The position numbers were made by a program, and so were the translations under genes. Positions 1-29,008 of a stretch of 32,594 nt of DNA are shown here, one piece after another. The DNA is taken from contig SLCE01000090.1 in the NCBI GenBank assembly GCA_007125985.1, positions 1-32,594 of the forward strand, given 5' to 3'. This stretch comes from Ectothiorhodospiraceae bacterium (GTDB lineage: Bacteria > Pseudomonadota > Gammaproteobacteria > Nitrococcales > Aquisalimonadaceae). The notes below the pieces were generated by a model. It was not told the DNA's origin. It did no database searches and saw only the letters and a program-made list of their open reading frames with translations. Position 1 is the stretch's first letter, and every line of letters begins with the position of its first letter.

Positions 1-756
1 CCGGACCAGAAACCGGCGGCCCGGGAACAGGTGTGCGGCGCGCTGCAGGCAGGCGGTTTCGGTCACCGGGAGGTGATTGTCCGCGTCAACAGCCTGGATA
101 CCTCCTGGGGCCAGGACGATCTGGAGGCCGTGGCGCAACACCCCCTTGATGCAGTGCTGCTTCCCAAGATCAGTGAAGTGGAGGATGTCACGCGAGCGCT
201 GGAAGTGCTGGACCAGGCGGGCGCGCCAGAGGAGTTGGCGATCTGGATCATGGCAGAGACGCCGCTGGGCATTCTCAACATCCAGGACATCTGTCGTTCA
301 TCGCCACGACTGGAGGTTCTGGTCATGGGCACCTCCGATCTGGCGCGGGATCTACGTGTGCGCCATACAGCCGACCGGGTGGGCCTGCTGGCCGCCCTTT
401 CCCGTTGCATGCTGGCGGCCCGTGCCTATGGCTTGGAGATTCTCGACGGCGTCTACCTGGACCTGCACAACGCGGAAGGCTTCCGCGATGCCTGCTTCCA
501 GGGGCGGGATCTCGGCTTCGACGGAAAAACCTGCATCCACCCCACCCAACTGCAGGTGGCAAATGAGGTTTTCAGCCCCACACGGCTGGACGTGGAACAC
601 GCCAAGGAGGTGATTGCGGCCTGGAGGCAGGCCGAGGCCGAGGGACGGGGCGTGGTGGTGGTGAACGGGAAAATGGTGGAATCCCTGCACGTGGAGGACG
701 CCGAGCGCGTTCTTCGTTTGCACGAGGCGATTGAGCAGGGACACAACCAAGGCTAA
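1..756 (+). CDS. CitE/HpcH-family CoA-ester lyase (malyl-CoA or citramalyl-CoA lyase-like), 5' partial
   Basis: The reading frame is open from base 1, reading PDQKPAARE before the GTG at 31 used by the ORF track. Because that segment matches the family's conserved region after the first acidic metal ligand, the gene must begin left of the window. Visible family motifs are MAETPLGILN, VMGTSDLARD, LDGVYLDLHNAEGF and KTCIHPTQ, the last being the conserved substrate-binding stretch of CitE-like TIM barrels. These Mg-dependent enzymes cleave or form 3-hydroxyacyl-CoA esters such as malyl-CoA, beta-methylmalyl-CoA or citramalyl-CoA; the exact substrate cannot be told from this fragment. Its TAA stop overlaps the stop of the convergent TRAP permease gene by four bases, so the two genes share no spacer. 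Family assignment is firm; substrate is inference. Confidence 0.88.
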   Translation, partial: PDQKPAAREQVCGALQAGGFGHREVIVRVNSLDTSWGQDDLEAVAQHPLDAVLLPKISEVEDVTRALEVLDQAGAPEELAIWIMAETPLGILNIQDICRSSPRLEVLVMGTSDLARDLRVRHTADRVGLLAALSRCMLAARAYGLEILDGVYLDLHNAEGFRDACFQGRDLGFDGKTCIHPTQLQVANEVFSPTRLDVEHAKEVIAAWRQAEAEGRGVVVVNGKMVESLHVEDAERVLRLHEAIEQGHNQG

Positions 757-3506
757 CAACTCCGGGTTTGGTTGCCAACAGCCCGGCGTCGTTGCAGCCA
801 CCAAACCAACGCCAGCAGGGCCAGCGCCGGCAGGAAAAACCATCGGGAGTCCGGCCGCTCGGCCGGGGTCAGCACCTCGGTGATGCGCTGCCCATTGGCA
901 ATGCCCACACGGTCCGCCTGGCTGCCATAGCTGACACTCGACACCTGTACCTGCTCACCAAAGGCCATCACCAGCACGCCGGCCCCCTGCAACCGGTCAA
1001 AGCCATCACCCTCGTCATCCACGCGCAACATCACCAGGCGCGATACATCCCGCCCTTCACTGTCCATGCCTTCCACCCGGAAGCGCAGACGATCGCCGCC
1101 ATCCAGCGCGCTCACATACTCCACGGCCTCATGCGCCGGCAAGGCATCAAATTCCGGCGCGACACGGTCCATCCAGTAGCCGGGGCGGAACAGGGTGAAC
1201 GCGATGAGCAGCAGAGCCGCCACCTCATACCAGCGCGTACGCACCACGAAGTACCCCTGGGTGGCCGCCGCGAACACCAGCATGGCAATGGTGGCGCTGA
1301 CAAAGGTCAGCACCAGATCCCAGGCGCTGTCGATACCGATCAACAGCAACTGCGTATTGAAGATAAACAGAAACGGTAGGGCCACCGTGCGCAGACTGTA
1401 GTAGAAGGCATGGATCCCGGTGCGTATCGGGTCGCCCCGCGCCACGGCGGCCGCGGCAAAGGATGCCAGCCCCACCGGCGGCGTCACATCCGCCATGATG
1501 CCGAAGTAGAACACAAACAGATGGACCGCAATCAGCGGCACCAATAATCCGGCCTGCGCTCCCAGATCCACCACCACCGGCGCCATCAGGCTGGCGACGA
1601 TGATGTAGTTGGCGGTGGTGGGCAGGCCGAGGCCCAGCACCAGGCTGAGCACCGCCACCAGTATGAGCATCAACATCAGATTGCCGCCGGAAATCACCTC
1701 CACCACCTGCGTCAGCACCAGTCCAACGCCGGTCATCGCAACAGTGCCGACAATGATCCCCGCCGCCGCCGTGGCAACGCCGATGCCCACCATATTCCGC
1801 GCCCCCTGCACCATACCGTCCAGCAGATCCCGTACACCCTGCCAGGCGGCCTCCCCGTAACGGCCGCGGCGGCGTAACAGATTGAGCAAGGGCCGTTGCG
1901 TCAAGAGAATGAAGATCAGGAAACTCACCGCCCAGAACGCGGACAGGCCCGGCGACAGCCGTTCCACGATCAATGCCCAGATCAGCACCACGATGGGCAG
2001 GATGAAGTGCAGGCCGCTGTTGATGGTGGGGCCCGGTGCAGGGAGTACGTAGACCGGCTTGGACGGGTCGTCGTGCGGCAATTCCGGATAACGTGCGGCG
2101 TTCCACAGCAGCCCCAAGTAGCTTGCGAGCACCAGCACACCAATCATCACGTTGGCGGCCGGGCCAAAGACGGTGCGCGTCCAGCCGATACCGTAGTACA
2201 CCAGGGCCGAGAGCACGATCAGCCCCACCAGCACCGTGGCAAAGGTGAACAGCTTTTGGTAAAGAGGCGTCACCACCCGCGGCGGAATGCCGCGCATGTC
2301 CGCCTTGAGCGCCTCCAGGTGCACGATGTAAAGCAGCGCGATATACGAAATGACCGCCGGCAGGAAAGCATGGCGGATCACCTCCAGATAGGTGATGCCC
2401 ACATACTCCACCATCAGAAACGCGGCAGCCCCCATCACCGGCGGCATCAACTGGCCATTCACGGAGCTGGCCACTTCCACGGCACCGGCCTTCTCTGCCC
2501 GAAACCCGACTCGCTTCATCAACGGAATCGTGAACGTCCCCGTGGTGACCGTATTCGCAATCGACGAGCCGGAAATCACCCCGGTCATGCCCGAGGCCAC
2601 CACCGCCGCCTTCGCCGGCCCGCCGCGCAGATGGCCCAACAGAGAGAAAGCCACCTGGATAAAGTAGTTGCCGGCACCGGCCCGATCCAGCAGCGCGCCG
2701 AAGAGCACGAACAGGAACACGAAACTGGTGGACACACCCAGGGCGATACCGAACACGCCCTCGCTGGAGAGCCAGAACTGGGACGCTGCGCGCGAGAACG
2801 AGGCACCCCGGTGGGCAATCAGGTCGGGCATGTACGGCCCGCCAAATGTATACACCAGAAACACCAGGGCAATCATGGCCAACGCGGGCCCCAGTGACCG
2901 CCGCGCTGCTTCCAGCAGCGTGATCATACCCACGCCGGCCACCATCAGATCCGCCAATACGGGCCGTCCGGGGCGGCCGGCAAGCTCTGTGTGGAAGAGG
3001 TAAAGATAGAAAGCCGAACAACCGGCAGCAATGGCCAGCAACCAGTCCAACAGCGGAATGCGGCGGGCATCCTTCTCCAGTATGCCGCCCAGCGCCACGG
3101 CAACCAGCGTCCCGGCCAGCACCAGCAGCACGGACACATGGGGCGTGCCCGGCAACGCCCGCCCCTGCCCCGAAAGCAGCGCAGCCCATAACGTCAGCGC
3201 CGCGAACACCAGATACAAAACCGGTGCGACGCCAAACCGCCCCTGGCTGCGCCGGCCGGGGAACAGCAGATAAACCAGCAACAGGGCGAAGGTCAGGTGA
3301 ATGGCCCGGGCCTGTGTATCGGGAAACATCCCGAAGCCGACCATGAACGGCAACGGCGAGGCAATCCAGAGCTGGAAACAGGACCAGGCCAGTGCCACAA
3401 GGTAAATGAAGCGGGCGGTGAGCCCCTGTGGATGGCGCTCACCGCCCTCAAGGTTGGCCAGGCGCTTCGCGGCCTCGTCACCCGACAGCGTGTTCGATTC
3501 CGTCAC
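753..3506 (-). CDS. TRAP-TAXI transporter fused permease (DctQM fusion) with C-terminal DUF3394-like tail
   Basis: A 917-residue inner-membrane protein that would import its substrate by Na+- or H+-driven symport with the periplasmic TAXI binding protein encoded just upstream. The N-terminal third resembles the fused small (DctQ-like) subunit and the rest is DctM-like, with the family signature GSSIANTVTTGTFTIPLMKR near residue 310 and a second GLGLPTTANYIIVA repeat near residue 640. After the transport core comes a soluble stretch ending in a PDZ-like segment (YGSQADRVGIANGQRITEV, about residues 860-880) and one last membrane helix followed by QRRR, as in permeases with a DUF3394 tail. The GTG at 3506 is preceded by GAGGGAG at a suitable distance. 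It lies 55 bases downstream of the binding-protein gene, in the same direction, with a hairpin between them. Confidence 0.93.
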   Translation of the reverse strand: MTESNTLSGDEAAKRLANLEGGERHPQGLTARFIYLVALAWSCFQLWIASPLPFMVGFGMFPDTQARAIHLTFALLLVYLLFPGRRSQGRFGVAPVLYLVFAALTLWAALLSGQGRALPGTPHVSVLLVLAGTLVAVALGGILEKDARRIPLLDWLLAIAAGCSAFYLYLFHTELAGRPGRPVLADLMVAGVGMITLLEAARRSLGPALAMIALVFLVYTFGGPYMPDLIAHRGASFSRAASQFWLSSEGVFGIALGVSTSFVFLFVLFGALLDRAGAGNYFIQVAFSLLGHLRGGPAKAAVVASGMTGVISGSSIANTVTTGTFTIPLMKRVGFRAEKAGAVEVASSVNGQLMPPVMGAAAFLMVEYVGITYLEVIRHAFLPAVISYIALLYIVHLEALKADMRGIPPRVVTPLYQKLFTFATVLVGLIVLSALVYYGIGWTRTVFGPAANVMIGVLVLASYLGLLWNAARYPELPHDDPSKPVYVLPAPGPTINSGLHFILPIVVLIWALIVERLSPGLSAFWAVSFLIFILLTQRPLLNLLRRRGRYGEAAWQGVRDLLDGMVQGARNMVGIGVATAAAGIIVGTVAMTGVGLVLTQVVEVISGGNLMLMLILVAVLSLVLGLGLPTTANYIIVASLMAPVVVDLGAQAGLLVPLIAVHLFVFYFGIMADVTPPVGLASFAAAAVARGDPIRTGIHAFYYSLRTVALPFLFIFNTQLLLIGIDSAWDLVLTFVSATIAMLVFAAATQGYFVVRTRWYEVAALLLIAFTLFRPGYWMDRVAPEFDALPAHEAVEYVSALDGGDRLRFRVEGMDSEGRDVSRLVMLRVDDEGDGFDRLQGAGVLVMAFGEQVQVSSVSYGSQADRVGIANGQRITEVLTPAERPDSRWFFLPALALLALVWWLQRRRAVGNQTRSC

Positions 3507-3528
3507 GCACGCTCCCTCGACAGACTAG

Positions 3529-3553
3529 CCCTCCGGCCGGCGGAGCCGGAGGG
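3529..3553 (-). repeat. Intercistronic hairpin between TAXI binding-protein and permease genes
   Basis: A perfect 9-base inverted repeat (CCCTCCGGC / GCCGGAGGG) with a 7-base loop sits in the 55-base gap between the two TRAP genes. No T-run follows on the minus strand, so it is more likely an mRNA-stabilising or attenuating stem than a full terminator. Binding-protein-first transport operons often carry such stems, giving more binding protein than permease; that role here is inference. Confidence 0.6.
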
Positions 3554-3561
3554 TGGCCGCA

Positions 3562-4554
3562 TCAGTCTTCCAGCAGACCCGCCTCACGGAAATACCGCTT
3601 CGCACCCTCATGCATCGGAGCGGACAAGCCCTCGCTGATCATCACCTCGGCTTCCAGAACGCCAAACGCGGGGTGCAGGCCCTTGAACATATCTAGGTTC
3701 TCGAACACCGCCTTCGTGACCTGGTAAACCACCTCTTCCGGTACGTCCGCCCGGGTCACAAAGGTGGCACCCACGCCGAACGTCTCCACGTCCGCGTCAT
3801 GGTTCGGATACATCCCGCCAGGAATCGTGGCATCGAAGTAGTACGGGGTTTCGTTCACCAGCTTGTCCACCGCCTCTCCGGTGACCGGCACCAGCCGTGC
3901 ATCGCAGGTCGCGATGGGCTCCTGGATAGAGCCCGATGGATGCCCCACCGTGAAAAGCACCACGTCAATGCGGTTGTCGCACAGCGCAGCCGCCTGCTCC
4001 CGTGATGGCAATTCGGAGGCCAGCGAGAAGTCATCCATCGTCCAGCCGTAGACCTCCATCAGGCGCTCCACCGTACCCCGCTGACCGGAACCGGGGTTAC
4101 CCACGTTCACACGCTTGCCCTTGATGTCGTCAAAGCTGCTGATGTTTGCATCCGGCCGCGCCACAACAGTAAAGGGCTCCGGGTGCAGTGAGAATACCGC
4201 GCGCAGGTCCTCATTCGCGCCCTGATCCGCAAACTGATCCGTTCCGTTGTAGGCATGGTATTGCCAGTCAGACTGCACCACACCGAACTCCAGGTCGCCC
4301 TCGGCAAGCGCGTTCAGGTTGTAAATTGAGCCAGCCGTGCTCTCCGCCGAACAACGGATGCCATGCTCGCTGCGGCCGCGGTTGACCAGGCTGCAGATCG
4401 CCCCGCCTGTGGGGTAGTAAACCCCGGTCACGCCACCGGTGCCGATGGTGGTAAAACGTTGCTCAGCCTGCGCGGTACTGGCGAAGGCACCTGCTGCGAT
4501 CAGCAAACCTGCGGCCGCCAGGCCCGCGATTCGGTGCACATTGTTCTGCGTCAT
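3562..4554 (-). CDS. TAXI-family TRAP transporter solute-binding protein
   Basis: A 330-residue periplasmic protein that captures the ligand for the permease encoded next to it. The N-terminus is a typical Sec signal peptide: a basic start, the hydrophobic core [14 protein letters not shown], and a likely cleavage after STAQA. The mature protein begins with the TAXI hallmark [17 protein letters not shown], and [14 protein letters not shown] and [12 protein letters not shown] are further conserved blocks. Cysteines near residues 52, 69, 193 and 218 could form two disulfides in the periplasm. GGAGAG precedes the ATG by about eight bases. Known TAXI ligands include glutamate/glutamine-like and C4/C5 dicarboxylate compounds; this ligand is unknown. 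The nearby CoA-ester lyase could hint at an organic acid, but only weakly, because the two genes are convergent. Confidence 0.94.
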
Positions 4555-10583: not shown

Positions 10584-12266
10584 ATGAGCGCGATCGTGGT
10601 TTTACTTGCCGGCCTGGTGGCCATGGCGCTGGGCTATTTCATCTATTCCAAGTTCATAGCGGAAAAGATTTTCCAGCTCGACCCCAATTTCCGCACCCCG
10701 GCAAATGAGTTCGAGGATGGTGTGGACTATGTTCCCACCAACAAATTCATTCTATGGGGACACCATTTCACCTCGGTCGCGGGCGCCGCACCCATCGTCG
10801 GCCCGGCAATTGCCGTGATCTGGGGCTGGCTACCGGCCTTCCTCTGGGTCATCTTCGGCACCATCTTCTTCGCCGGGGTGCATGACGCCGGCGCGATCTG
10901 GGCGAGCGTTCGCAACCGCGCCCGCTCCATTGGCGCGGTCACCGGTGACGTGATCGGCGCACGGGCGCGCAGCCTTTTCATGATCGTGATTTTCCTCGTG
11001 CTTCTGATGGTGAACGCAGTGTTCGCCGTGGTGATCGCCAACCTGCTGATTGCCAACCCATCGGCAGTGGTCCCTGCCTGGGGAGCGATCCTGGTGGCGC
11101 TGATCATCGGCCAGATGATTTATCGCCGCCGGACGAATCTGCTCACCGTCTCGATTATCGGCGTCGTTGCCCTGTATGGCCTGATCCTGATTGGGCCGAT
11201 GGTTCCCATCAGCCTGCCGGAGAGCTTCCTGGGTCTGCCCCAGAACAGTCTGTGGATCCTGATCCTGTTCCTGTATGCCGCCATCGCGTCGTTGTTGCCC
11301 GTATGGGTGCTGCTGCAACCGCGGGACTACATCAACGGCTTGCAGTTGTTCATCGGCCTGGGCATCGTCTACGCGGCCGTTCTGATCGGCAATCCCACCA
11401 TGGTGGCGCCGGCGGTGAACCCGGATGTCCCGGCCGGCACGCCGTCGCTGCTGCCCTTGTTGTTCGTCACCATCGCCTGTGGCGCCATTTCCGGCTTCCA
11501 CGGCCTGGTGTCCTCCGGCACCACCTCGAAGCAGATCAAGAACGAGAAAGATGTGCGCTTCGTCGGTTACTTTGGTGCCGTCGGCGAAGGTTCACTGGCC
11601 CTGGCCGCGATACTGGCCACCAGTGCCGGTTTCGCTACGCTGGCGGAATGGCAGGCACTGTACTCGAGCTTCGGCGCCGGGGGCGTGAACGCCTTTGTGC
11701 AGGGCGGTGCCAACATCGTCTCAGCCGGGCTCGGTCTGCCGCAGGACATTGCGGTGACCCTGTTGACCGTGATGGCAGTGCTGTTTGCGGGAACGACCAT
11801 GGACACGGGCATCCGGCTGCAGCGCTACATCATGCAGGAATGGGGCACCATCTATAACATCCCGGCTCTGCGGAGCATTCCTGTGGCCACCGTCGTGGCA
11901 GTAGGCGCCTGTGTCGCGCTGGCCTTCGGTGCTGGTGGTCTGGACGGTAGCGGTGGCCTGCTAATCTGGCCGCTGTTCGGCACCACCAACCAGTTGCTGG
12001 CCGGTTTGACCCTGCTGGTGATCACCGTGATCATCGTCCGCCTGGGGCGGCCCATGTGGTTCACATTGATCCCGTTGGCCTTCCTGCTGACCATGACCAC
12101 GTATGCCCTGCTCATTCAACTGGTGAGCTTCTACAATGACGGCAACTGGTTCCTGCTGTTCCTGGATGTGGTAATCCTGATCGCCGCCATCCTGGTGCTG
12201 CTAGAGTGCGTGGGCGTACTGCGCAAACATCTGCGGGAACGGGATGCCCGTCAATCCACCGGTTGA
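10584..12266 (+). CDS. cstA: Carbon starvation protein CstA (pyruvate/peptide transporter family)
   Basis: A 560-residue polytopic inner-membrane protein. CstA family members import pyruvate or peptides, often under carbon limitation. Family blocks are WGHHFTSVAGAAPIVGPAIA near residue 60, FAGVHDAGAIWASVRNRARS near 100, GFHGLVSSGTTSKQIKNEKD near 310 and a C-terminal 5-helix part (FGTTNQLLAGLTLLVIT). It is clearly shorter than the roughly 700-residue E. coli CstA and BtsT. AGAGGAGAAAG precedes the ATG. The next gene begins only seven bases after the stop, so cstA heads a cluster with the cory-CC-star and ArsA-like genes. Family is firm; substrate is inference. Confidence 0.95.
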   Translation: MSAIVVLLAGLVAMALGYFIYSKFIAEKIFQLDPNFRTPANEFEDGVDYVPTNKFILWGHHFTSVAGAAPIVGPAIAVIWGWLPAFLWVIFGTIFFAGVHDAGAIWASVRNRARSIGAVTGDVIGARARSLFMIVIFLVLLMVNAVFAVVIANLLIANPSAVVPAWGAILVALIIGQMIYRRRTNLLTVSIIGVVALYGLILIGPMVPISLPESFLGLPQNSLWILILFLYAAIASLLPVWVLLQPRDYINGLQLFIGLGIVYAAVLIGNPTMVAPAVNPDVPAGTPSLLPLLFVTIACGAISGFHGLVSSGTTSKQIKNEKDVRFVGYFGAVGEGSLALAAILATSAGFATLAEWQALYSSFGAGGVNAFVQGGANIVSAGLGLPQDIAVTLLTVMAVLFAGTTMDTGIRLQRYIMQEWGTIYNIPALRSIPVATVVAVGACVALAFGAGGLDGSGGLLIWPLFGTTNQLLAGLTLLVITVIIVRLGRPMWFTLIPLAFLLTMTTYALLIQLVSFYNDGNWFLLFLDVVILIAAILVLLECVGVLRKHLRERDARQSTG

Positions 12267-12273
12267 GGTGCAC

Positions 12274-12591
12274 ATGAGCAAGGGTGACCGTCCGGACCGG
12301 CAAGACCGGTCCGGCTCCCCCAACCGAGGCGATGGCCGGGCCTGGCTGGAACAGGCCCGGCACTTTGCCGAGGAGTTCTACTTCGGTCGTTATCGTTCCA
12401 CCATTGCCCGGGCCCGGCGTGATCAGGACGACCTGTTCATGCTGCTCGTGTTTTCGGAGATGATGGGCGTGCCCAACCCGGCCACGTACTACACGCTGGA
12501 GTTGCAGCCCCTCCTGTTGGAGCGCTTCCATGACTGGCACCGCCGCATGGGTATGGAGCACTCCCCCCTGGATCACTTTCGCTGCTGCTGA
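12274..12591 (+). CDS. Cory-CC-star protein (small soluble protein ending in Cys-Cys)
   Basis: A 105-residue protein with a charged, low-complexity N-terminus, a helical core (WLEQARHFAEEFYFGRY, then DDLFMLLVFSEMMGVPNP) and the invariant-looking end DHFRCC directly before the stop codon. That terminal Cys-Cys-stop, together with an ArsA-like ATPase gene right after it, is what defines the family named cory-CC-star in public annotation. There is no other cysteine in the protein, no signal peptide and no membrane segment. The ATG at 12274 is chosen over 12244 because TTGAGGTG lies just before it and the upstream start would overlap cstA. Its stop overlaps the ATPase start (TGATG), indicating translational coupling. 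Function unknown; a thiol- or metal-handling partner of the ATPase is inference. Confidence 0.82.
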   Translation: MSKGDRPDRQDRSGSPNRGDGRAWLEQARHFAEEFYFGRYRSTIARARRDQDDLFMLLVFSEMMGVPNPATYYTLELQPLLLERFHDWHRRMGMEHSPLDHFRCC

Positions 12592-13619
12592 TGCCTGAAC
12601 AAGACGCGATGACCAACCTGCTGGACCGCCGCATTCTTTTCGTCGGGGGCAAAGGAGGCGTTGGCAAGACCACAACAGCTGCCGCCTTGGGCGTGCTGGC
12701 AGCCGAACGCGGCAAGCGTTGTCTGGTGGTATCCACGGACCCGGCCCATTCCCTGGGTGATGCCTTTGACCGGGAGATCGGCGACCGCATCACCGGCATC
12801 ACCGCCGGCGTCTGGGGCCTTGAAATCGACCCGGACGCCCAGGCAGCCCGTCACCTGGATGCGGTCACAGAGCAGATGAAACAGCTCGCGGCACCCGAAA
12901 TGCACGCAGAGCTGGAACGACAGATGCAGATGGCGCGCATGTCGCCTGGCGCCGTGGAGGCTGCATTACTGGAAGAGGTCTGTCGGGTCATGCTGGAGGG
13001 GATGGAAGACTATGACCTGGTGATCTTCGACACGGCACCCACCGGCCACACCCTGCGCCTGCTTACGCTGCCCGAGGCCATGGCTGCCTGGACCGATGGG
13101 CTGCTGGCGCACAACCGCAAATCCAAGGAGCTGGGCGAGGTTCTCAAACACCTGACCCCCCGGGGCAGCCGGGCAGACGTCCCGACACCCTTTGATGATC
13201 CGGACGAAGACCCGTTCGAGGGTATGGACCGGCGCACGCGGCGCATAGCCGAGACGCTGCTGAACCGGCGCCGCCTGTTCCACCGGGCCCGCCGACGGAT
13301 CACCGACGCAGAGACCACCGGCTTCGTGTTCGTGCTGACCCCGGAGCGGCTGCCGATTCTGGAAACCCATCGCGCCATGCATGCGCTGCGACAGTTCGAC
13401 ATCCCGCTGTGTGGCGCCTTCGTCAACCGGGTGCTGCCAGCGGACGCGGACGGCGAATTCCTACGCCGCCGCCGGGAACAGGAGGCACGCTACCTGGATG
13501 AAATTCCCCAGGCGCTGCATGGATTGCCCACCCGCCAGGTGCCCATGCTGCCGGAGGACATTCAGGGGTTGGACTCCCTGCGTGCCGTGGCCGCGCACCT
13601 GGATCGCTTGGGGATTTGA
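12591..13619 (+). CDS. ArsA/Get3-like P-loop ATPase, single nucleotide-binding domain
   Basis: A 342-residue cytosolic ATPase of the SIMIBI class. It shows the deviant Walker A GGKGGVGKTT (residues 19-28), switch I STDPAHSLGDAF with Asp50, switch II DTAPTGHTLRLL (147-157) and a late AFVNRVLP block. A single domain means it should work as a homodimer, as Get3 does. The family includes the ArsA arsenite-pump motor and the tail-anchored-protein targeting factor Get3. Here there is no arsB or arsR nearby, no Get3-type CXXC and only three cysteines (44, 131 and one near 275), so classic arsenite extrusion is not supported. It starts within the stop codon of the cory-CC-star gene; the ATG at 12609 is an alternative start. 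A role with that protein or with CstA is inferred from context. Confidence 0.9.
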   Translation: MPEQDAMTNLLDRRILFVGGKGGVGKTTTAAALGVLAAERGKRCLVVSTDPAHSLGDAFDREIGDRITGITAGVWGLEIDPDAQAARHLDAVTEQMKQLAAPEMHAELERQMQMARMSPGAVEAALLEEVCRVMLEGMEDYDLVIFDTAPTGHTLRLLTLPEAMAAWTDGLLAHNRKSKELGEVLKHLTPRGSRADVPTPFDDPDEDPFEGMDRRTRRIAETLLNRRRLFHRARRRITDAETTGFVFVLTPERLPILETHRAMHALRQFDIPLCGAFVNRVLPADADGEFLRRRREQEARYLDEIPQALHGLPTRQVPMLPEDIQGLDSLRAVAAHLDRLGI

Positions 13620-13643
13620 GCCACAGGCGGCTATTATGCCGCC

Positions 13644-13922
13644 ATGCAGACATTCATCTTGATCTTGATCACCCTCGTGGGCATCGCCGCTGCCTTCTAC
13701 GCGCATTGGCGCCTGCCTTACCAGACACCGAATCCCCGTCAACTCCGTATCGGGCGCATTGTGCTGGTCTCCACGGGGCTGGCCTTTGGTTGGATTTCCG
13801 CCCGGGTCTACGGCATTGCCACGGATCTGAACGTGGTCATCGTCTTCATCGCCGGTTTCGGGCTCATCCATGTCCCCGCAGCAGGGGTGCTGTTTATCAA
13901 GACGTTTCGGCCCGAGGAGTAA
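13644..13922 (+). CDS. Small integral membrane protein of unknown function, downstream of ArsA-like ATPase
   Basis: A 92-residue protein with three predicted hydrophobic segments (about 3-19, 41-57 and 62-84) and a short charged tail. The ATG at 13644 is the only in-frame start after the ATPase stop 24 bases upstream. The ribosome binding site is weak (AGGCGG, rather far from the start), so translation may depend on coupling. I recognise no family. Same strand and close spacing place it as the last gene of the cstA / cory-CC-star / ATPase cluster, with a convergent thioesterase operon beginning ten bases after its stop. Confidence 0.7.
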   Translation: MQTFILILITLVGIAAAFYAHWRLPYQTPNPRQLRIGRIVLVSTGLAFGWISARVYGIATDLNVVIVFIAGFGLIHVPAAGVLFIKTFRPEE

Positions 13923-13931
13923 GCGGAGCCG

Positions 13932-14390
13932 TCACTGCTCCACAAGATCCTCCTGCCGGGTGAGCAGAAAATGCGCCCGCGCGGTGGCGACGATTTTTTC
14001 CCGATTGCTCTGCCAGGTTTCCACCGACACGTTGGCCACGCGCTGCCCCTGCCGTACAACCCGGCAGACCGCAAAGGTATCCTCCGCCAGCCCAGGGCGT
14101 AAGTAGTCGATGGAGAAATCAATCACCTTCGGCTGCATGGCGCTTTCCATGTTCCACAGCAGGTGCATGATGGCCGCGTGCTCCATGAAAGCGCCGATGG
14201 CACCGCCATGCAGGGCGGGCATGACCGGGTTGCCGATGTTCCGTTCGTTATAGGCGAGTCGGAACAGCAATTCCCCGCCCTCTTCACGGAAATCAATGCC
14301 CAGAAAACGGGCATACGGGAACAGATTCATAGCGCGCGCGTAATCGCCGTCGGCCCGGGCCTGACGAATAATGGCGACGATATCCTTCAT
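13932..14390 (-). CDS. Hotdog-fold thioesterase (PaaI/YigI-like), second of a tandem pair
   Basis: A 152-residue hotdog protein predicted to hydrolyse acyl-CoA or aryl-CoA thioesters in the cytosol. The long central helix and its lead-in read PALHGGAIGAFMEHAA, the PaaI-type HGG block with the following acidic residue in the active-site region, and IDFSIDYLRPG is the typical next strand pair. The ATG overlaps the stop of the upstream thioesterase gene by four bases (ATGA), with AGGAG nine bases before it. It is clearly diverged from its neighbour (different helix residues: EHAA versus DQTS), so the two may form a heteromer or have different substrates. Substrate unknown. Confidence 0.88.
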   Translation of the reverse strand: MKDIVAIIRQARADGDYARAMNLFPYARFLGIDFREEGGELLFRLAYNERNIGNPVMPALHGGAIGAFMEHAAIMHLLWNMESAMQPKVIDFSIDYLRPGLAEDTFAVCRVVRQGQRVANVSVETWQSNREKIVATARAHFLLTRQEDLVEQ

Positions 14391-14848
14391 CCCTGCTTGC
14401 TCCTGCGGCGGAAAAGTGGCCCGACTTTCATGAAGCTGCTGACACTGGTGGCGACCGGCCGCTGTTCATCGACGGTAAACGCAGAACAACGGACAAAACA
14501 GATGTAACGCGTGACCTTGAAGCACTCGGCGCGCGCGTACACCGCATGCCCGGATTCCGCGGCGGAGAGATGATCAATGCGAAGATCAAGAGTGGCCACC
14601 TGTTGCGCCACATCGCTGGCGAACGAAGCCGCCCCACCGCTGGTCTGGTCGATCAGCGTGGTAATCACGCCTCCATGAATGAACCCCGTGACCGGGTTGC
14701 CCACCATAAAATCCTGGAACGGCACCCGCATGAGCAGCATCCCCTTGTCCACCTCCAGTACCTCGACACCCAGGGCGTTCCCGTGCGGCAGACGGGAGAA
14801 AAACAGCCGGATCTGTTCGTCTCGTGGCAGCTTGTCCAACTCGGTCAT
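14387..14848 (-). CDS. Hotdog-fold thioesterase (PaaI family), first of a tandem pair
   Basis: A 153-residue PaaI-type hotdog protein. The block GFIHGGVITTLIDQTSGGAA contains the HGG motif and the Asp at the start of the catalytic helix, and LRIDHLSAAESGHAVYARAE is the usual following strand. It should act on CoA thioesters; members of this family commonly clear dead-end acyl-CoAs. Start and stop each overlap a neighbouring gene by four bases, placing it between the DUF2750 gene and the second thioesterase in one operon. GAGGA lies eight bases before the ATG. The exact substrate cannot be predicted. Confidence 0.9.
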   Translation of the reverse strand: MTELDKLPRDEQIRLFFSRLPHGNALGVEVLEVDKGMLLMRVPFQDFMVGNPVTGFIHGGVITTLIDQTSGGAASFASDVAQQVATLDLRIDHLSAAESGHAVYARAECFKVTRYICFVRCSAFTVDEQRPVATSVSSFMKVGPLFRRRSKQG

Positions 14849-16830: not shown

Positions 16831-17682
16831 TCAGGCTGGCTGGTGGTGGCTGGACCAATCCACCCAGACGGGGGTCACCGTGGGGGGAAGCGGGTCGAGC
16901 CGCCCCAGTTCGATCCACGGGTTCTCAGGGCCGTGGAAATCCGATGCCACGGAGCCCTTAAGCCCGAAACGCAGTGCATAACCCACGCTGGTGCGAACAC
17001 GCTGCGCCCCGGTATTCCCGCAACACACTTCCAGTGCCTCCCCACCGGCATCCCGGAATGCGGTGAGCACACGGCGCATCCATGCCCCGGTGAACCCGTA
17101 GGCCAAGGGATGCGCCAGAACAGCACAGCCTCCCGCAGCACGAATGTGGGCCACCGCCTCCTCCATGGGCATCCAGTCCACACCAACCCAGGCGCGCCTG
17201 CCCCGCTTGAGATAGCGATCAAACGCCTGTTGTAATTCCCGCACCACGCCCTGTTCCAGCAGGAAGCGGGCGAAATGGGTCCGTGTGGGCACCGTTCCCC
17301 CGGCCTGCAGCAGCACCTGGTCCGCATCGGCCACGCCGGCCTTCTTCAGCTTTTCCGCCATGTGTTCGGCGCGTGCCCAACGCCGTGCGCGATTATCCCG
17401 CAGCCCCGCTTCAAGGGCGGGATGCGCCGGGTCCAGATTGAGCCCGACCACATGCAACTCCCGCCCATTCCAAAGGGTGGATATCTCCACGCCGGGCACC
17501 AGGGCCACGCCCTGATGCCGCGCCTCCTGAGCTGCCGCGTCCAATCCGTCCACCGTGTCATGATCAGTGAGCGCGAGCACGGAAACACCCTGCGCCGCCG
17601 CACGTGCCACCACCGCCTCCGGCGCCAGCGTGCCGTCGGATTCGGTGGAGTGACAATGCAGATCAATGCTCAATGAGCGCAC
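16831..17682 (-). CDS. rnm: RNase AM / PHP-domain nucleoside-3',5'-bisphosphate phosphatase
   Basis: A 283-residue cytosolic metallophosphoesterase similar along its length to E. coli YciV (RNase AM). That enzyme matures the 5' ends of rRNAs and can hydrolyse nucleoside-3',5'-bisphosphates. PHP motifs in order: DLHCHSTESDG, LTDHDTVDG, PGVEISTLW, HVVGLN, THFARFLLEQG, AVLAHP and SDFHGP, supplying the His/Asp ligands of a multi-metal site. The GTG at 17682 is chosen because GGAGG lies nine bases upstream; the ORF-track start at 17712 would run past that site. It is divergent from the Mla-like operon with about 110 bases between the starts. Confidence 0.88.
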   Translation of the reverse strand: MRSLSIDLHCHSTESDGTLAPEAVVARAAAQGVSVLALTDHDTVDGLDAAAQEARHQGVALVPGVEISTLWNGRELHVVGLNLDPAHPALEAGLRDNRARRWARAEHMAEKLKKAGVADADQVLLQAGGTVPTRTHFARFLLEQGVVRELQQAFDRYLKRGRRAWVGVDWMPMEEAVAHIRAAGGCAVLAHPLAYGFTGAWMRRVLTAFRDAGGEALEVCCGNTGAQRVRTSVGYALRFGLKGSVASDFHGPENPWIELGRLDPLPPTVTPVWVDWSSHHQPA

Positions 17683-17791
17683 GTTGTTGAACCTCCAGCA
17701 AAGCCCGACCACTACAGGCCACGGGCTGACCGCGGCCTGTGGTAATGTTCACGTACATGACTTGTTGAACTCTGGAAAAACGATCAGTTTC

Positions 17792-18919
17792 ATGAGCAGG
17801 CACCATCCGGCACAGGAACCGTCCCCTGGTCTATCCCGTGAGGGAGCCGTACTGGCCTGCCGTGGCAACTGGACCGCGTCCCAGCTTAACCGCCTGGAAC
17901 GCCTGCTGCACGAGTTGCAGGCCGAGCATGGCGCCCGCTGGCAGCTTGATACCAGTGACATTAGCCGCATGGACACCGCCGGAGCGTTGATGTTGCACCG
18001 GCTGCGGGAACGCCTGGAACAGGCCGGCGTGGAACTGGATCTATCCGGTCTGTCCCAGCGCCATCGGGATCTACTCGACCTGGTCCATGAGACAGAGTCC
18101 CTGCCGCCGCCCAGGCCCCGTTTCCAGGGCCCCCTGGAAGGGCTGGGGCGAAGCGCCACTGAAATCGGCCGTGAGGCCGTTGATTTTCTGGCCTTCATGG
18201 GCCAGTTCGCGCTGGATTCCCTACCCCGGCTCCTGCGTCCGCATCGTTTGCGATGGAAACAGATCGTCGCCGAGATCGAGATCGCTGGCGTCCGCGCCAT
18301 TCCCATTCTCGGCCTGCTGGTCTTCCTCACCGGCGTTGTGATTGCCTATCAGGGCGGCGCGCCGCTGGAACAATACGGCGCCAACATCTTCCTGGTGGAT
18401 CTGCTGGTCATCACCATGCTGCGGGAAATGGCCCCGCTGATGACCGCCATCATTGTGGCAGGCCGCACTGGCTCCGCCTATGCGGCTCAGATCGGGACCA
18501 TGCGCATAACCGAGGAGATCGACGCGCTTCGTGTCACGGGTATCACCCCCTTTGAAATCCTTGCGCTCCCCAAGGTACTGGCTCTAGTGCTGGCCATGCC
18601 TCTGCTCACCCTGTTTGCCGACGTGGTGGGCGTATTCGGCGGCATGGTGGTGGCCAACGCCATGTTTGACGTCAGTTTTGCGGAGTTCATCCGCAGAATC
18701 CCGGATGCCATGGCGCCGAGTTCCTTCTGGGTGGGCATCATCAAGGCGCCCGTCTTTGCAGTGATCATCGCGTCTGTGGGCTGCTACCACGGCTTCGCGG
18801 TCCGCGGCAGCACGGAAAGCGTGGGCCGCGCCACGACGCGCGCCGTGGTGCACGGTATCTTCCTGGTCATCGTGGTGGATGCCCTGTTCTCAGTCATCTT
18901 CAACCAGCTGGGGCTGTAG
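17792..18919 (+). CDS. MlaE-type lipid ABC transporter permease with fused N-terminal STAS domain
   Basis: A 375-residue inner-membrane protein. Residues about 15-110 form a STAS domain (GAVLACRGNW, LDTSDISRMDTAGALML), the role that the separate MlaB protein plays in E. coli. The remainder is an MlaE permease with the hallmark IIVAGRTGSAYAAQIGTMRITEEIDAL. With the ATPase, MCE protein and lipoprotein encoded after it, it should move phospholipids between inner and outer membrane. The ATG at 17792 is the first plausible start; the ORF track begins upstream inside the divergent gene. The ribosome binding site is weak. The ATPase gene starts two bases after its stop. Confidence 0.92.
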   Translation: MSRHHPAQEPSPGLSREGAVLACRGNWTASQLNRLERLLHELQAEHGARWQLDTSDISRMDTAGALMLHRLRERLEQAGVELDLSGLSQRHRDLLDLVHETESLPPPRPRFQGPLEGLGRSATEIGREAVDFLAFMGQFALDSLPRLLRPHRLRWKQIVAEIEIAGVRAIPILGLLVFLTGVVIAYQGGAPLEQYGANIFLVDLLVITMLREMAPLMTAIIVAGRTGSAYAAQIGTMRITEEIDALRVTGITPFEILALPKVLALVLAMPLLTLFADVVGVFGGMVVANAMFDVSFAEFIRRIPDAMAPSSFWVGIIKAPVFAVIIASVGCYHGFAVRGSTESVGRATTRAVVHGIFLVIVVDALFSVIFNQLGL

Positions 18920-18921
18920 CC

Positions 18922-19686
18922 ATGGCCGCCGAGAATCTGGTGGATGTGCAGGATCTGGAAACGCGCCTGGGCGGAAACCTGATCCATGAGCATTTGAACC
19001 TGAACGTGGAGCGCGGTGAAATTCTGGCGATCGTCGGCGGCAGCGGCAGCGGCAAGACCGTGCTTCTGCGTCACATGATTCTGCTCACGCGCCCCACGGG
19101 CGGCACGGTCCGCCTGTTCGGGGAGGATTCCCGCCATACCTCGCCCCCCCTGCTCCGAGACCTGCGTCGCCGTGTGGGGGTGATGTTTCAGCACGGCGCC
19201 CTGTTCACTGGCATGACAGTCCTCGAGAACGTCTGCTTTCCCATCGCAGAGCACAGTCACATGAAACGCGGCCAGCGGGAGGAGCTGGGTATGCTCAAAA
19301 TCCGCCTGGCCGGTCTGCCGCCGGAAGCCGCCGGCAAACTCCCCAACGAGCTCAGCGGGGGCATGGTGAAGCGGGCCGCACTGGCCCGCTCCCTGGCCAT
19401 GGATCCTGAACTGCTGTTTCTGGATGAACCCACCGCCGGACTGGACCCGGTGAGTGCCGGCGCATTCGACGAACGCATCATGGAACTGCGGGAATTACTG
19501 GGGCTGACTGTGGTCATGATCACGCACGATCTGGATACCTTGTGGACCGCCACCGACCGCGTGGCATTTCTCGCCGAGCGCAAGGTGGTGGCCGAAGCCC
19601 CGATTGCGGAACTGGTGGACACCCCGCATCCTGAGATCAGTGGTTATTTCACCGGCACCCGCGGCAGGACGAGGAGATCGCACTGA
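18922..19686 (+). CDS. MlaF-type lipid ABC transporter ATPase
   Basis: A 254-residue cytosolic ABC ATPase. It has Walker A GGSGSGKT near residue 39, Q-loop MFQHGALF, signature LSGGMVKRAALARSL and Walker B LLFLDEPTAGLDP, followed by the switch histidine in MITHDLDTL. The pattern, especially FQHGALFTGMTVLENVCFP and GGMVKRAALAR, is that of MlaF/Ttg2A-type ATPases of MCE lipid transporters rather than amino-acid importers. It begins two bases after the permease stop, and its own stop shares a base with the next start (TGATG), so it is the second gene of a tight operon. Confidence 0.93.
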   Translation: MAAENLVDVQDLETRLGGNLIHEHLNLNVERGEILAIVGGSGSGKTVLLRHMILLTRPTGGTVRLFGEDSRHTSPPLLRDLRRRVGVMFQHGALFTGMTVLENVCFPIAEHSHMKRGQREELGMLKIRLAGLPPEAAGKLPNELSGGMVKRAALARSLAMDPELLFLDEPTAGLDPVSAGAFDERIMELRELLGLTVVMITHDLDTLWTATDRVAFLAERKVVAEAPIAELVDTPHPEISGYFTGTRGRTRRSH

Positions 19687-20633
19687 TGGAAACCCGCGTC
19701 GGATACATCGCAGTCGGGCTGTTTGTGCTATTACTCGGCACCGGCCTCATCGGTGCCGGCCTTTGGTTCAGCGCCGACCTCAGCACGCGTGACTACACCC
19801 GCTACACAATCTATTCGGAGGAATCGGTCAGCGGCCTCACGGGAAATGCGGAAATCAAGTTTCATGGCGTCAACGTGGGACGGGTGCACAGTATCCATCT
19901 GCTGCCCGACGAACCCGGCCGGGTACGCATCGAGATCAACGTGGACCGTGAAACACCGGTCCGGGCGGACACCACGGCCCAACTCGCCACCCAGGGACTG
20001 ACCGGCTTTGCCCACATCGAACTGCGCGGCGGCTCTGCAGATGCCGGCGCGCCCGACACCCCTGAGGGCGAAGCGTATCCGGTCCTGGAAATGCGGCCAT
20101 CGCTGGTTAACCGCCTGGAGGCCGGTCTCGCCCGCGGGGTGGAGACGCTGGACGAACTCTCCGGTCAGGTGGCGCGACTACTGGCTGATGAAAACCTGGA
20201 TGCCATTACCGCCACGCTGGTGAATCTGGAGGAACTAAGCCAGCGTCTGGTGGATAACGGTGCCCGCCTGGAGCGGATCCTGGAATCCAGCGAGACCATC
20301 ATGGACCAGACCGCCGTGGCCAGCGAACAGCTGGTCCCGCTGTTCGAGCAGATCGAGACCGCCCTGTCCGGCGTGGACAGCATGAGCCGTTCCCTGGAAG
20401 ACGCGGCGCGTCGCGCCGGACAGGCCAGCGATGAGGTCGCCGACGTGGGCCGCGAAAGCGCCCGCAGTCTGCATCAGTTCAGCAGCAGCACCTTGCCCCA
20501 GCTCACCGAACTCATGATCGAACTGCAGGATGTGGCAGCCGGAATCAATCGCCTCACCGATGACATCAGCGAACAGCCCAACCGCCTGATTTTCGGTCGC
20601 CCGCAACGCCCATCCGGCCCCGGAGAAGAGTGA
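19686..20633 (+). CDS. MlaD-type MCE-domain lipid-binding protein
   Basis: A 315-residue protein anchored by one N-terminal helix (GYIAVGLFVLLLGTGLIGAGLW), followed by an MCE domain at about residues 38-115 (VSGLTGNAEIKFHGVNVGRV, QLATQGLTGFAHIELRG) and a long helical region rich in Glu, Leu and Ser to the C-terminus. MCE proteins form hexameric rings in the periplasm that carry lipid for the ABC core. It is longer than E. coli MlaD (about 183 residues); the extra helical tail resembles other MCE proteins with coiled-coil needles. Start and stop overlap the flanking genes, so production should be coupled with them. Confidence 0.92.
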   Translation: METRVGYIAVGLFVLLLGTGLIGAGLWFSADLSTRDYTRYTIYSEESVSGLTGNAEIKFHGVNVGRVHSIHLLPDEPGRVRIEINVDRETPVRADTTAQLATQGLTGFAHIELRGGSADAGAPDTPEGEAYPVLEMRPSLVNRLEAGLARGVETLDELSGQVARLLADENLDAITATLVNLEELSQRLVDNGARLERILESSETIMDQTAVASEQLVPLFEQIETALSGVDSMSRSLEDAARRAGQASDEVADVGRESARSLHQFSSSTLPQLTELMIELQDVAAGINRLTDDISEQPNRLIFGRPQRPSGPGEE

Positions 20634-20635
20634 AC

Positions 20636-21244
20636 ATGCGCCCTTACACGACGGTACTGCTCCTGGCTCTGGTTCTGCTGACCAGCGGCTGTATGTCCCT
20701 GACCGGCAGCCAGCAGACGCACCCCCAGACCTGGCAGTTGCTCGCCCCGGAAATCAGCGGCTTCCGCGACGAGCCGCGGGCCGCATCCATACTGGTGAGC
20801 CGCGTTAAGGCCATGCCGGGTTACGATACCGCGGCACTTGCATACCGGGAGAGCGACCACGAGATCCGCTATTACGCACGCAACAGCTGGTCCGACCGGC
20901 CCGCGAGACAGCTGCAACCGGTGCTGGTGGAGCACCTGGAAAACCGGGGTCTGTTCCAGACGGTACTGGCCGGCCCCGCTTCCCTGGCCACCGATTACCG
21001 CCTGGAAACAGAGCTGCTCTACCTGGAGCTGGATTTTCGGCAGGAGCCGGGCCAGGCGCGCATGGCCATGCGCGTGCGGCTCATCGACCAGGAGGACCAA
21101 GACCTGCTCATGAGCAAAACCCTGCGCAGCCGGGCGGAGATGGGCGCAACCCACCCCGAAGCCGGCGTTGCCGCGGCCAATCAGGCATTGGCGAAACTGC
21201 TGGAGACACTGGAGCGGGAACTGGCGGCAGCCCTGGAGGAATAG
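20636..21244 (+). CDS. ABC-type transport auxiliary lipoprotein (PqiC/YmbA-like)
   Basis: A 202-residue lipoprotein. The signal peptide ends in the lipobox LTSGC, and no Asp follows the cysteine, so outer-membrane sorting is expected. The mature part (SILVSRVKAMPGYDTAALAYRE, ARNSWSDRPARQLQP, VLVEHLENRGLF) matches the ABC_trans_aux family that includes PqiC. With the preceding MCE protein it probably forms the outer-membrane end of the lipid transporter. The ATG at 20636 is preferred over the GTG at 20630 because GGAGAAGAG lies just upstream. It is the last gene of the operon and converges on recQ. Confidence 0.88.
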   Translation: MRPYTTVLLLALVLLTSGCMSLTGSQQTHPQTWQLLAPEISGFRDEPRAASILVSRVKAMPGYDTAALAYRESDHEIRYYARNSWSDRPARQLQPVLVEHLENRGLFQTVLAGPASLATDYRLETELLYLELDFRQEPGQARMAMRVRLIDQEDQDLLMSKTLRSRAEMGATHPEAGVAAANQALAKLLETLERELAAALEE

Positions 21245-25299: not shown

Positions 25300-27216
25300 A
25301 TGCTGAACTTCGTGAACCTTTCCCTGCGCCGGGGCAGCAATCTGCTGTTCTCAGAGGCCAACCTCACCATCCATGCCGGCGAGCGCGTGGGCATCGTTGG
25401 CGCCAACGGCACCGGCAAGTCGAGCCTGTTCGGGCTCATCCGCGGCAGCCTCCACGCCGATGCCGGCGAGTGCCAACTGCCGCCCGGGCTGGTGATCGCC
25501 CATGTTGCCCAGGAGACGCCGGCCGACGAACGACCGGCGCTTGAGTACGTGATGGACGGGGACGCGGAACTGCGCCGGGTGCAGGCCGCGCTCGCGCGGG
25601 CGGAGCAGGCCGCCGATGGAACGCGCATTGCCACCCTGCATGAACAGATGCAGACCATCGGCGCCTATGATGCCCATGCCCGCGCGGCACGGCTGATGCA
25701 TGGCCTCGGGTTCACGCCGGGCCAGGAACAGGTGCCGGTGGCCAGCCTCTCCGGCGGTTGGCGCATGCGGCTGAACCTGGCCCAGGCCCTGATGTGCCGA
25801 TCCGACCTGCTGCTCCTGGACGAGCCCACCAACCATCTGGATCTGGACGCGGTCCTGTGGCTGCAGGACTGGCTTTGCAACTATGCCGGCACCCTGCTCC
25901 TGATCTCCCACGACCGGGAGTTCCTGGACGCCGTGGTGAAACGCATCATCCATGTGGATCAGGGTCGGCTCCAATCCTATACCGGCCATTACACGGATTT
26001 TGAGCGTCAGCGCGCCGCCCGGCTGGAGCAGCAGCAGGCGCAGCACGAACGCCAGCTGGAGGAACGCGCCCGCCTGCAGCAGTTCATTGACCGTTTTCGC
26101 GCCAAGGCTACCAAGGCACGCCAGGCACAGAGCCGTATCAAAGCGTTGGAACGCATGGAGTTCACCCAGGCGGTGCGCCAAACCCAGGCATTCCAGTTCA
26201 GCTTTATGGAGCCGCGAAAGCTGCCGAATCCGCTGCTGCAACTGGAAGACGCGGCCGTGGGTTACGGGGAAACCGCGGTGCTGGCCGGCGTGAACCTGCA
26301 GCTCTCGCCGGGCGATCGCATCGGTTTGCTGGGGCCCAACGGGGCGGGCAAATCCACACTGATTCGCGGGATTGCCGGGTATCAGCCGCTGCTCTCCGGA
26401 AAGCGCCAGACCGCGCAGGATCTCACCGTCGGCTATTTCGCGCAGCACCAGCTGGAGCAGTTGGATCCGGCCGCCTCGCCGCTGCTGCACCTGCAGCGCC
26501 TGGACCCGCGCGCCACCGAGCAGAGCCTGCGGGACTTCCTGGGCAGCTTCGGCTTTCCCGGTGACAGCGCCCTGGCGGACGTCGCCCCGTTGTCCGGCGG
26601 CGAGAAGGCGCGGCTGGCACTGGCCCTGCTGGTCTATCAGCGCCCTAACCTGTTGCTGCTGGATGAGCCCACCAACCACCTGGACCTGGACATGCGCCAG
26701 GCTTTGGCCATGGCCTTGCAATCCTTCTCCGGCGCTCTGGTCGTGATCGCCCATGACCGTCATCTGCTGCGGATGACCACGGATCAGCTATTCCTGGTGG
26801 CGGATCACCGCGTATCGGAATTTGACGGCGACCTGGACGACTACGCACGCTGGCTGGCCTCCCGGCGCCAGGAGGCTGACACGGGTTCCGGCGATGATGA
26901 CGACGGTTCGCGCACGACAGCTGCGGACCGAAAGGAGCAGCGGCGCCGGGATGCGGATCGGCGCAAGGCGCTGCAACCGCTGCGCCGTCGCGTAGAAAAG
27001 CTGGAAAAGGAACTCGGCAAACTTGAGGCGCGCCGGGCAGGCCTGGAAAGCGACCTCGCTGCGCCGGAACTGTATGACGCCGGGAACAAGGCGCAAATGC
27101 AAACGCTGCTGCAGGAGCAGGCCGCGCTGATGCAGCGCCTTGAACAGGTGGAGAATGACTGGATGCAGGCTGCTGCGGAGCTTGAAGCCGCCGAAGCGGA
27201 ACCCAACACCGGCTAG
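25300..27216 (+). CDS. yheS: ABC-F family ATPase YheS
   Basis: A 638-residue soluble twin-ATPase of the ABC-F class, thought to act on ribosomes rather than in membranes. Two ATPase domains have Walker A GANGTGKSS and GPNGAGKST, signatures LSGGWRMRLNLAQAL and LSGGEKARLALALL, and Walker B LLLLDEPTNHLDLD in both. The linker RAKATKARQAQSRIKALERM is the interdomain arm placed near the peptidyl-tRNA in this class, and the charged C-terminal coiled coil begins near residue 545. The sequence matches E. coli YheS (637 residues) closely throughout, for example QETP and YVMDGD near the start. No strong ribosome binding site is visible before the ATG. Confidence 0.95.
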   Translation: MLNFVNLSLRRGSNLLFSEANLTIHAGERVGIVGANGTGKSSLFGLIRGSLHADAGECQLPPGLVIAHVAQETPADERPALEYVMDGDAELRRVQAALARAEQAADGTRIATLHEQMQTIGAYDAHARAARLMHGLGFTPGQEQVPVASLSGGWRMRLNLAQALMCRSDLLLLDEPTNHLDLDAVLWLQDWLCNYAGTLLLISHDREFLDAVVKRIIHVDQGRLQSYTGHYTDFERQRAARLEQQQAQHERQLEERARLQQFIDRFRAKATKARQAQSRIKALERMEFTQAVRQTQAFQFSFMEPRKLPNPLLQLEDAAVGYGETAVLAGVNLQLSPGDRIGLLGPNGAGKSTLIRGIAGYQPLLSGKRQTAQDLTVGYFAQHQLEQLDPAASPLLHLQRLDPRATEQSLRDFLGSFGFPGDSALADVAPLSGGEKARLALALLVYQRPNLLLLDEPTNHLDLDMRQALAMALQSFSGALVVIAHDRHLLRMTTDQLFLVADHRVSEFDGDLDDYARWLASRRQEADTGSGDDDDGSRTTAADRKEQRRRDADRRKALQPLRRRVEKLEKELGKLEARRAGLESDLAAPELYDAGNKAQMQTLLQEQAALMQRLEQVENDWMQAAAELEAAEAEPNTG

Positions 27217-28501: not shown

Positions 28502-28576
28502 GGAATTCCCACCACTGGCCAGTGCATACTTTTCATGCCCGAGGAGGGCCACGGGCTTTATAATGCCTTGTAAGTG

Positions 28577-28937: not shown

Positions 28938-29008
28938 AGCCACGCCAGCGCAGCGCGTGCGTGGTCTCGTCGAATTTCACACTCAGTCACCCATTGGTAC
29001 AGATCAAC

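Follow-up and report, generated by a model that had tools for sequence, protein, structure and literature searches.

Operons in which a CstA-family transporter is encoded beside an ArsA-like ATPase have been known since 2010. The account by Castillo and Saier (2010, PMC2963123) reports 26 CstA-ArsA associations in bacteria and archaea, 24 of them with a small protein named CstX, describes the CstA-linked ATPases as single-domain proteins of about 330 amino acids (aa) encoded outside arsenic operons, and proposes CstX as the link by which the ATPase energises CstA. The window analysed here, a stretch of 32,594 nucleotides from an Ectothiorhodospiraceae bacterium (GCA_007125985.1, contig SLCE01000090.1), contains three adjacent genes encoding a CstA-family transporter, the small cory-CC-star protein (hereafter CC-star) that ends in two cysteines, and a Get3/ArsA-type ATPase. 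It is well supported that CstA, CC-star and the ATPase form one conserved unit, and the trio is interpreted, with moderate confidence, as a transport module in which CC-star would be an accessory subunit that presents a dithiol to CstA and is itself handled by its own ATPase. A fourth gene, encoding a small membrane protein, follows on the same strand. The spacings across the four genes are 7, -1 and 24 bases, with the start codon of the ATPase gene sharing one base with the stop codon of the CC-star gene. The coordinates, strand, lengths and spacings given in an earlier reading of the sequence (the original prediction) were all correct, and the features are as follows:

10584..12266, + strand: CstA-family transporter, short type, 560 aa (Pfam PF02554, 463.6 bits)
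12274..12591, + strand: cory-CC-star protein, 105 aa (NF041419, 136 bits, cut-off 80)
12583..12588, + strand: terminal Cys-Cys codons of cory-CC-star (from the sequence; invariant alignment columns C83 and C84)
12591..13619, + strand: single-domain Get3/ArsA-type ATPase, 342 aa (TIGR00345, 270.6 bits, cut-off 135)
13644..13922, + strand: small membrane protein, 92 aa, outside the system (tblastn; no family above cut-off)

The original prediction put this cluster forward as an undescribed system, a claim overtaken by the CstA-CstX-ArsA operons published in 2010 (PMC2963123). The published operon has the same three adjacent same-strand genes, a single-domain ATPase of about 330 aa and no arsR. 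Cluster 17 of that paper has members from Halorhodospira and Alkalilimnicola ehrlichei, and one of the loci surveyed here (L055) is from another A. ehrlichii strain with the same gene order, which places the species in both sets. CC-star is very probably the CstX of Castillo and Saier, a match made by description and not by sequence. The CstX of archaeal cluster 14 is about 90 aa with a single transmembrane segment, whereas the window protein is 105 aa with no clear transmembrane segment, and the available portion of the CstX account (PMC2963123) makes no mention of a Cys-Cys tail or of YbdD.

The CstA of Escherichia coli is a long-type protein (approximately 700 aa) from a different deep clade, with a DUF466 partner in place of CC-star and no ArsA-like ATPase. 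This downstream partner, YbdD, also ends Arg-Cys-Cys. The pyruvate transporters CstA-YbdD and BtsT-YjiX of E. coli (PMC5847655) thus resemble the trio in pairing a CstA-family protein with a small downstream partner of this ending, and ybdD is required alongside cstA for constitutive pyruvate uptake, its deletion lowering uptake about as much as deletion of cstA (Hwang et al. 2018, PMC5847655). A published mutant lacking cstA, ybdD and btsT together failed to grow under the conditions employed. Proteins of DUF466 end in Cys-Cys or Cys-selenocysteine (Cys-Sec), which has been taken as a sign of redox activity (Cravedi et al. 2015, PMC4607533). DUF466 and the KCU-star selenoproteins (NF033934, PMC4607533) share the terminal vicinal Cys-Cys with CC-star, with Cys-Sec in some Campylobacterales, but no significant sequence homology between them and CC-star is established, and no selenocysteine form of CC-star was seen. 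The word cysteine is absent from the 2018 paper and CstA is absent from the 2015 paper, so neither seems to address a connection between CstA and the tail, and nothing relevant on CC-star, KCU-star or a link between CstA and the tail was found among open-access papers. This kind of operon has therefore been described since 2010, and the tie between YbdD and CstA dates from 2018; no open-access paper was found that links the two with each other or with the terminal Cys/Sec pair of DUF466.

A homologue scan with the 105-aa protein, using one genome per species, returned 218 relatives, from which 80 loci were kept; these are labelled Halomonas and relatives, Ectothiorhodospiraceae, Idiomarinaceae, Halopseudomonas, Alkalimonas and others. 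The survey was centred on Pseudomonadota, with other phyla covered through plasmids and the 2010 paper (PMC2963123); the evidence for archaea and Bacillota consists of one plasmid and that paper. In 79 of the 80 genome loci, CC-star is preceded by CstA and followed by the ATPase, and 97 of 98 scanned loci (approximately 90 of them distinct, as a few places were counted twice) have the three genes on one strand in the order CstA, CC-star, ArsA. The sole exception (L031) keeps CC-star and the ATPase, with CstA on another contig of that genome. The trio was found in Gammaproteobacteria, Alphaproteobacteria and one Bacillota plasmid; according to the annotation of the depositors, its order is the same on plasmids of Pseudochrobactrum and Paracoccus (Alphaproteobacteria) and Cytobacillus (Bacillota). 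The association of CstA with the CC-star and ATPase pair, which had been proposed from the window, is thereby strongly supported. On the Cytobacillus plasmid, a 95-aa ORF with no NCBIfam match lies between CstA and CC-star (L150:5630-5914). Two Natronospirillum genomes carry a second CstA gene directly 3' of the ATPase gene (L073:7421-9091 and L074:7427-9097), and these second copies are sister to the first copies in the CstA tree.

The co-occurrence that had been predicted for four genes holds for three of them. The small membrane protein is encoded beside the trio in only two of the 80 other genome loci (L002 and L012, by tblastn), so it does not belong to the system as had been suggested, and a four-gene system is ruled out. 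This 92-aa protein, which matches no NCBIfam family and Pfam only below threshold, is a lineage-specific local neighbour. Recurrent additional partner genes were not established by neighbour clustering, which was muddied by antisense ORFs.

CC-star of the window ends ...HFRCC-stop and contains no other Cys. The Cys-Cys end is present in all 74 distinct CC-star sequences identified by phmmer, as the original prediction required. In a 24-sequence alignment, FHxWHxRxG and the two terminal Cys are among the invariant positions; H65, H68, C83 and C84 are all invariant. The AlphaFold2 model of CC-star consists of helices followed by a loose tail (pLDDT 75), and a fold search with this model gave no match. 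The best 19-residue hydropathy window scores 1.0-1.4 among CC-star proteins (about 1.0 in the window protein), and there is no clear transmembrane segment.

A tail of the same kind is found on YbdD, the partner of other CstA proteins. PF04328 (YbdD/DUF466) was searched in 299 Pseudomonadota genomes and is present in 54, all of which (54/54) also carry a long CstA. The YbdD gene is directly downstream of the long CstA gene in 52 of these, and in the remaining two the genes are on different contigs due to contig breaks. The YbdD tails read at these loci end RCC or KCC, with one CPC variant. YbdD retains two His and the Cys-Cys, as CC-star does, and its AlphaFold model likewise shows helices and then a loose tail (pLDDT 83). 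The CPC variant is a YbdD-like protein ending RRCPC (L171:7823-8041), a CxC variant of the Cys-Cys tail.

A third source of the tail is CstA itself. There is no PF04328 match in eight of 62 long-CstA genomes, and in seven of these eight CstA ends ...RCC. Within one family that holds both states, all six CstA proteins with YbdD are tail-less and all eight complete CstA proteins without YbdD end RCC; two further genomes have CstA fragments only and two have no CstA. The CstA tree places the cis-tailed clade inside the YbdD clade, which suggests that a tail in trans was replaced once by one in cis.

YbdD and CC-star are complementary across genomes, as YbdD occurs in one of 57 CC-star genomes compared with 54 of 128 other CstA-bearing genomes. 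The corresponding Fisher value of 7e-10 makes the evidence look stronger than it is, because related genomes do not count as independent and sampling differed between the two sets. In the single genome that has both proteins (L026/G317), YbdD adjoins a long CstA of its own and CC-star adjoins a short CstA. CC-star shows no match to Pfam, PF04328 included, at E 0.1, and the full local profile score between CC-star and YbdD, which rests on the Cys pair, beats 60 of 60 column shuffles. CC-star shares with YbdD its place downstream of CstA and its Cys-Cys end, which is a functional resemblance and not family membership. By this analogy, YbdD, with the same tail and genomic place, appears a better comparison for CC-star than ArsD.

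In the interpretation given above, CstA would be a membrane transporter of pyruvate or small peptides, as its homology to E. coli CstA and BtsT suggests. CC-star would be a small accessory subunit in the cytosol, with a flexible tail that carries the terminal dithiol to CstA on its cytoplasmic side. It would serve CstA as YbdD may serve the long-type E. coli CstA and as the fused tail may serve CstA proteins that lack YbdD. The dithiol probably works as a nucleophile or a redox-sensitive switch by which transport is permitted or tuned, and the Get3/ArsA-like ATPase would be a dedicated homodimeric ATP-driven chaperone that docks or resets CC-star on CstA. What we infer from the comparisons is a physical contact of CC-star with CstA, a redox role for the dithiol and a loader role for the ATPase. 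A wider reading is put forward more tentatively, namely that most CstA-family transporters may work with a terminal dithiol as a common part, which can come from any of three interchangeable sources: YbdD/DUF466 in trans, CC-star with its loader ATPase in trans, or a fused tail. On that view, the redox subunits CC-star and YbdD would be related by analogy or by very remote homology, and the ATPase would be a machine of the Get3 type specialised for a soluble client with a Cys-Cys tail. Should the tail prove to be what these systems have in common, this would explain the need for YbdD in pyruvate uptake and would suggest a use for the C-terminal selenocysteine of DUF466; CC-star would gain a function, and a branch of Get3/ArsA proteins with no known substrate would gain a likely client.

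Several observations weigh against the proposed module and its tail. The eighth long-CstA genome with no PF04328 match (G114), which is broken across contigs, shows no tail. The switch to the cis tail is probably a single evolutionary event, judging from the tree, so the counts within the family are not independent observations. The hhalign probability between CC-star and YbdD is 3%, and once the Cys pair is taken out, 12 of 60 shuffles match their score. The short CstA group f4 (L158, L159 and L160), 59-60% identical to the window CstA, has neither CC-star nor the ATPase; f4 is nested inside the CC-star clade in the CstA tree, and its state is best read as a joint loss of the two. A second short CstA group, about 42% identical to the window CstA, also has no CC partner. 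Short CstA proteins with no CC partner thus exist, which indicates that not every CstA strictly needs the tail. No CstA residue covarying convincingly with the tail was found among the groups compared, and a PDB search by sequence returned no structure for any of CstA, CC-star and YbdD. In all compared groups, with or without a tail, C299 of the window CstA (position 331 in the untrimmed frame) is invariant. The window CstA scores 242 bits against an NCBIfam CstA equivalog cut-off of 1188, as expected for a member of the short clade.

The window ATPase has the deviant P-loop, switch I and switch II motifs common to Get3/TRC40 and ArsA. The segments GGKGGVGKT (P-loop), STDPAH and DTAPTGHT are conserved in 88 orthologues (at least 95% per position), and the protein is therefore predicted to hydrolyse ATP. 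It differs from Get3 in having no CXXC, which in Get3 is a zinc motif at the dimer interface, and from ArsA in having no tandem domains and no conserved cysteines such as those with which ArsA binds metalloid. With one domain and 342 aa, it scores 154 bits against TIGR04291, where the cut-off is 650, and on the preferred reading it is not an arsenic pump. Its presence was tested in 27 genomes chosen to represent each partner state: TIGR00345 was above the cut-off in all seven CC-star genomes, and the 20 genomes that have YbdD, have a cis tail or lack a partner gave no score above it. The ATPase therefore follows CC-star, and not CstA or the Cys-Cys tail as such, so CC-star is its likeliest client and, on these distributions, probably its actual one.

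This distribution also bears on the proposal of Castillo and Saier (2010) that the ArsA-like ATPase directly energises CstA transport with CstX/CC-star as the coupling linker. The conserved operon is consistent with it, as are protein distances that correlate for every pair (r 0.90-0.92) and the coevolution trees in that publication (PMC2963123). However, a distance correlation of this kind is expected from shared descent alone. Long CstA proteins, the cis-tailed clade and the partnerless short clades do not have this ATPase, which indicates that the CstA fold can do without it, and E. coli CstA and BtsT are described as proton symporters. Direct energisation is considered unlikely.

CC-star could instead be a metal or metalloid chaperone resembling ArsD, with its ligand passed to the ATPase or to CstA. 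The two invariant His (HxxH) and the Cys-Cys of the 24 aligned sequences could form a metal site, and YbdD likewise has two His and Cys-Cys. ArsD, however, has an ars operon context and a cysteine acceptor, both of which are absent for CC-star. The Pfam families of the window neighbours are thioesterases, DUF2750, EamA, ODP and GGDEF, and no ars genes or arsR were found among these Pfam-scanned neighbours of the trio, which bears out the predicted lack of an arsenic operon context. None of the 88 ATPase orthologues carries a CXXC, confirming another earlier remark on the window protein, and no Cys column is conserved among them (best 23%). An ATPase with no conserved Cys argues against an ArsD-like cysteine relay; the hand-off in the style of ArsD to ArsA that had been suggested has no cysteine acceptor and is disfavoured. 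In addition, cis-tailed CstA proteins hold the Cys-Cys in the absence of a YbdD-like domain. A chaperone of this type is rather unlikely.

The membership of the ATPase in TIGR00345 raises the further alternative of a Get3-like targeting factor that inserts CstA or another membrane protein, with CC-star as its adaptor. The PGxxEA motif and the switch regions of the ATPase, which we take to be Get3-like, are in keeping with this. The expected route for the polytopic CstA is, however, the signal recognition particle. Most CstA clades have no such ATPase, and the hydropathy of CC-star gives no clear transmembrane segment, making a targeting factor improbable. The preferred reading remains that of an ATPase dedicated to CC-star.

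Downstream of the trio and convergent with it are two adjacent hotdog-fold thioesterase genes with a 4-base overlap (13932-14848, - strand). Further along, a Mla-type lipid transport cluster (17666-21244, + strand) encodes an MlaE permease with an N-terminal STAS domain, an ATPase, an MlaD protein and an auxiliary lipoprotein. Two genes for ABC proteins with duplicated ATPase domains (25300-27216 and 28961-30907, + strand) lie on either side of an HD-domain (DUF3391) gene (27227-28552, - strand). Near the start of the window (753-4554, - strand), a TRAP-type transporter (DctM with DUF3394) adjoins an NMT1-like binding protein.

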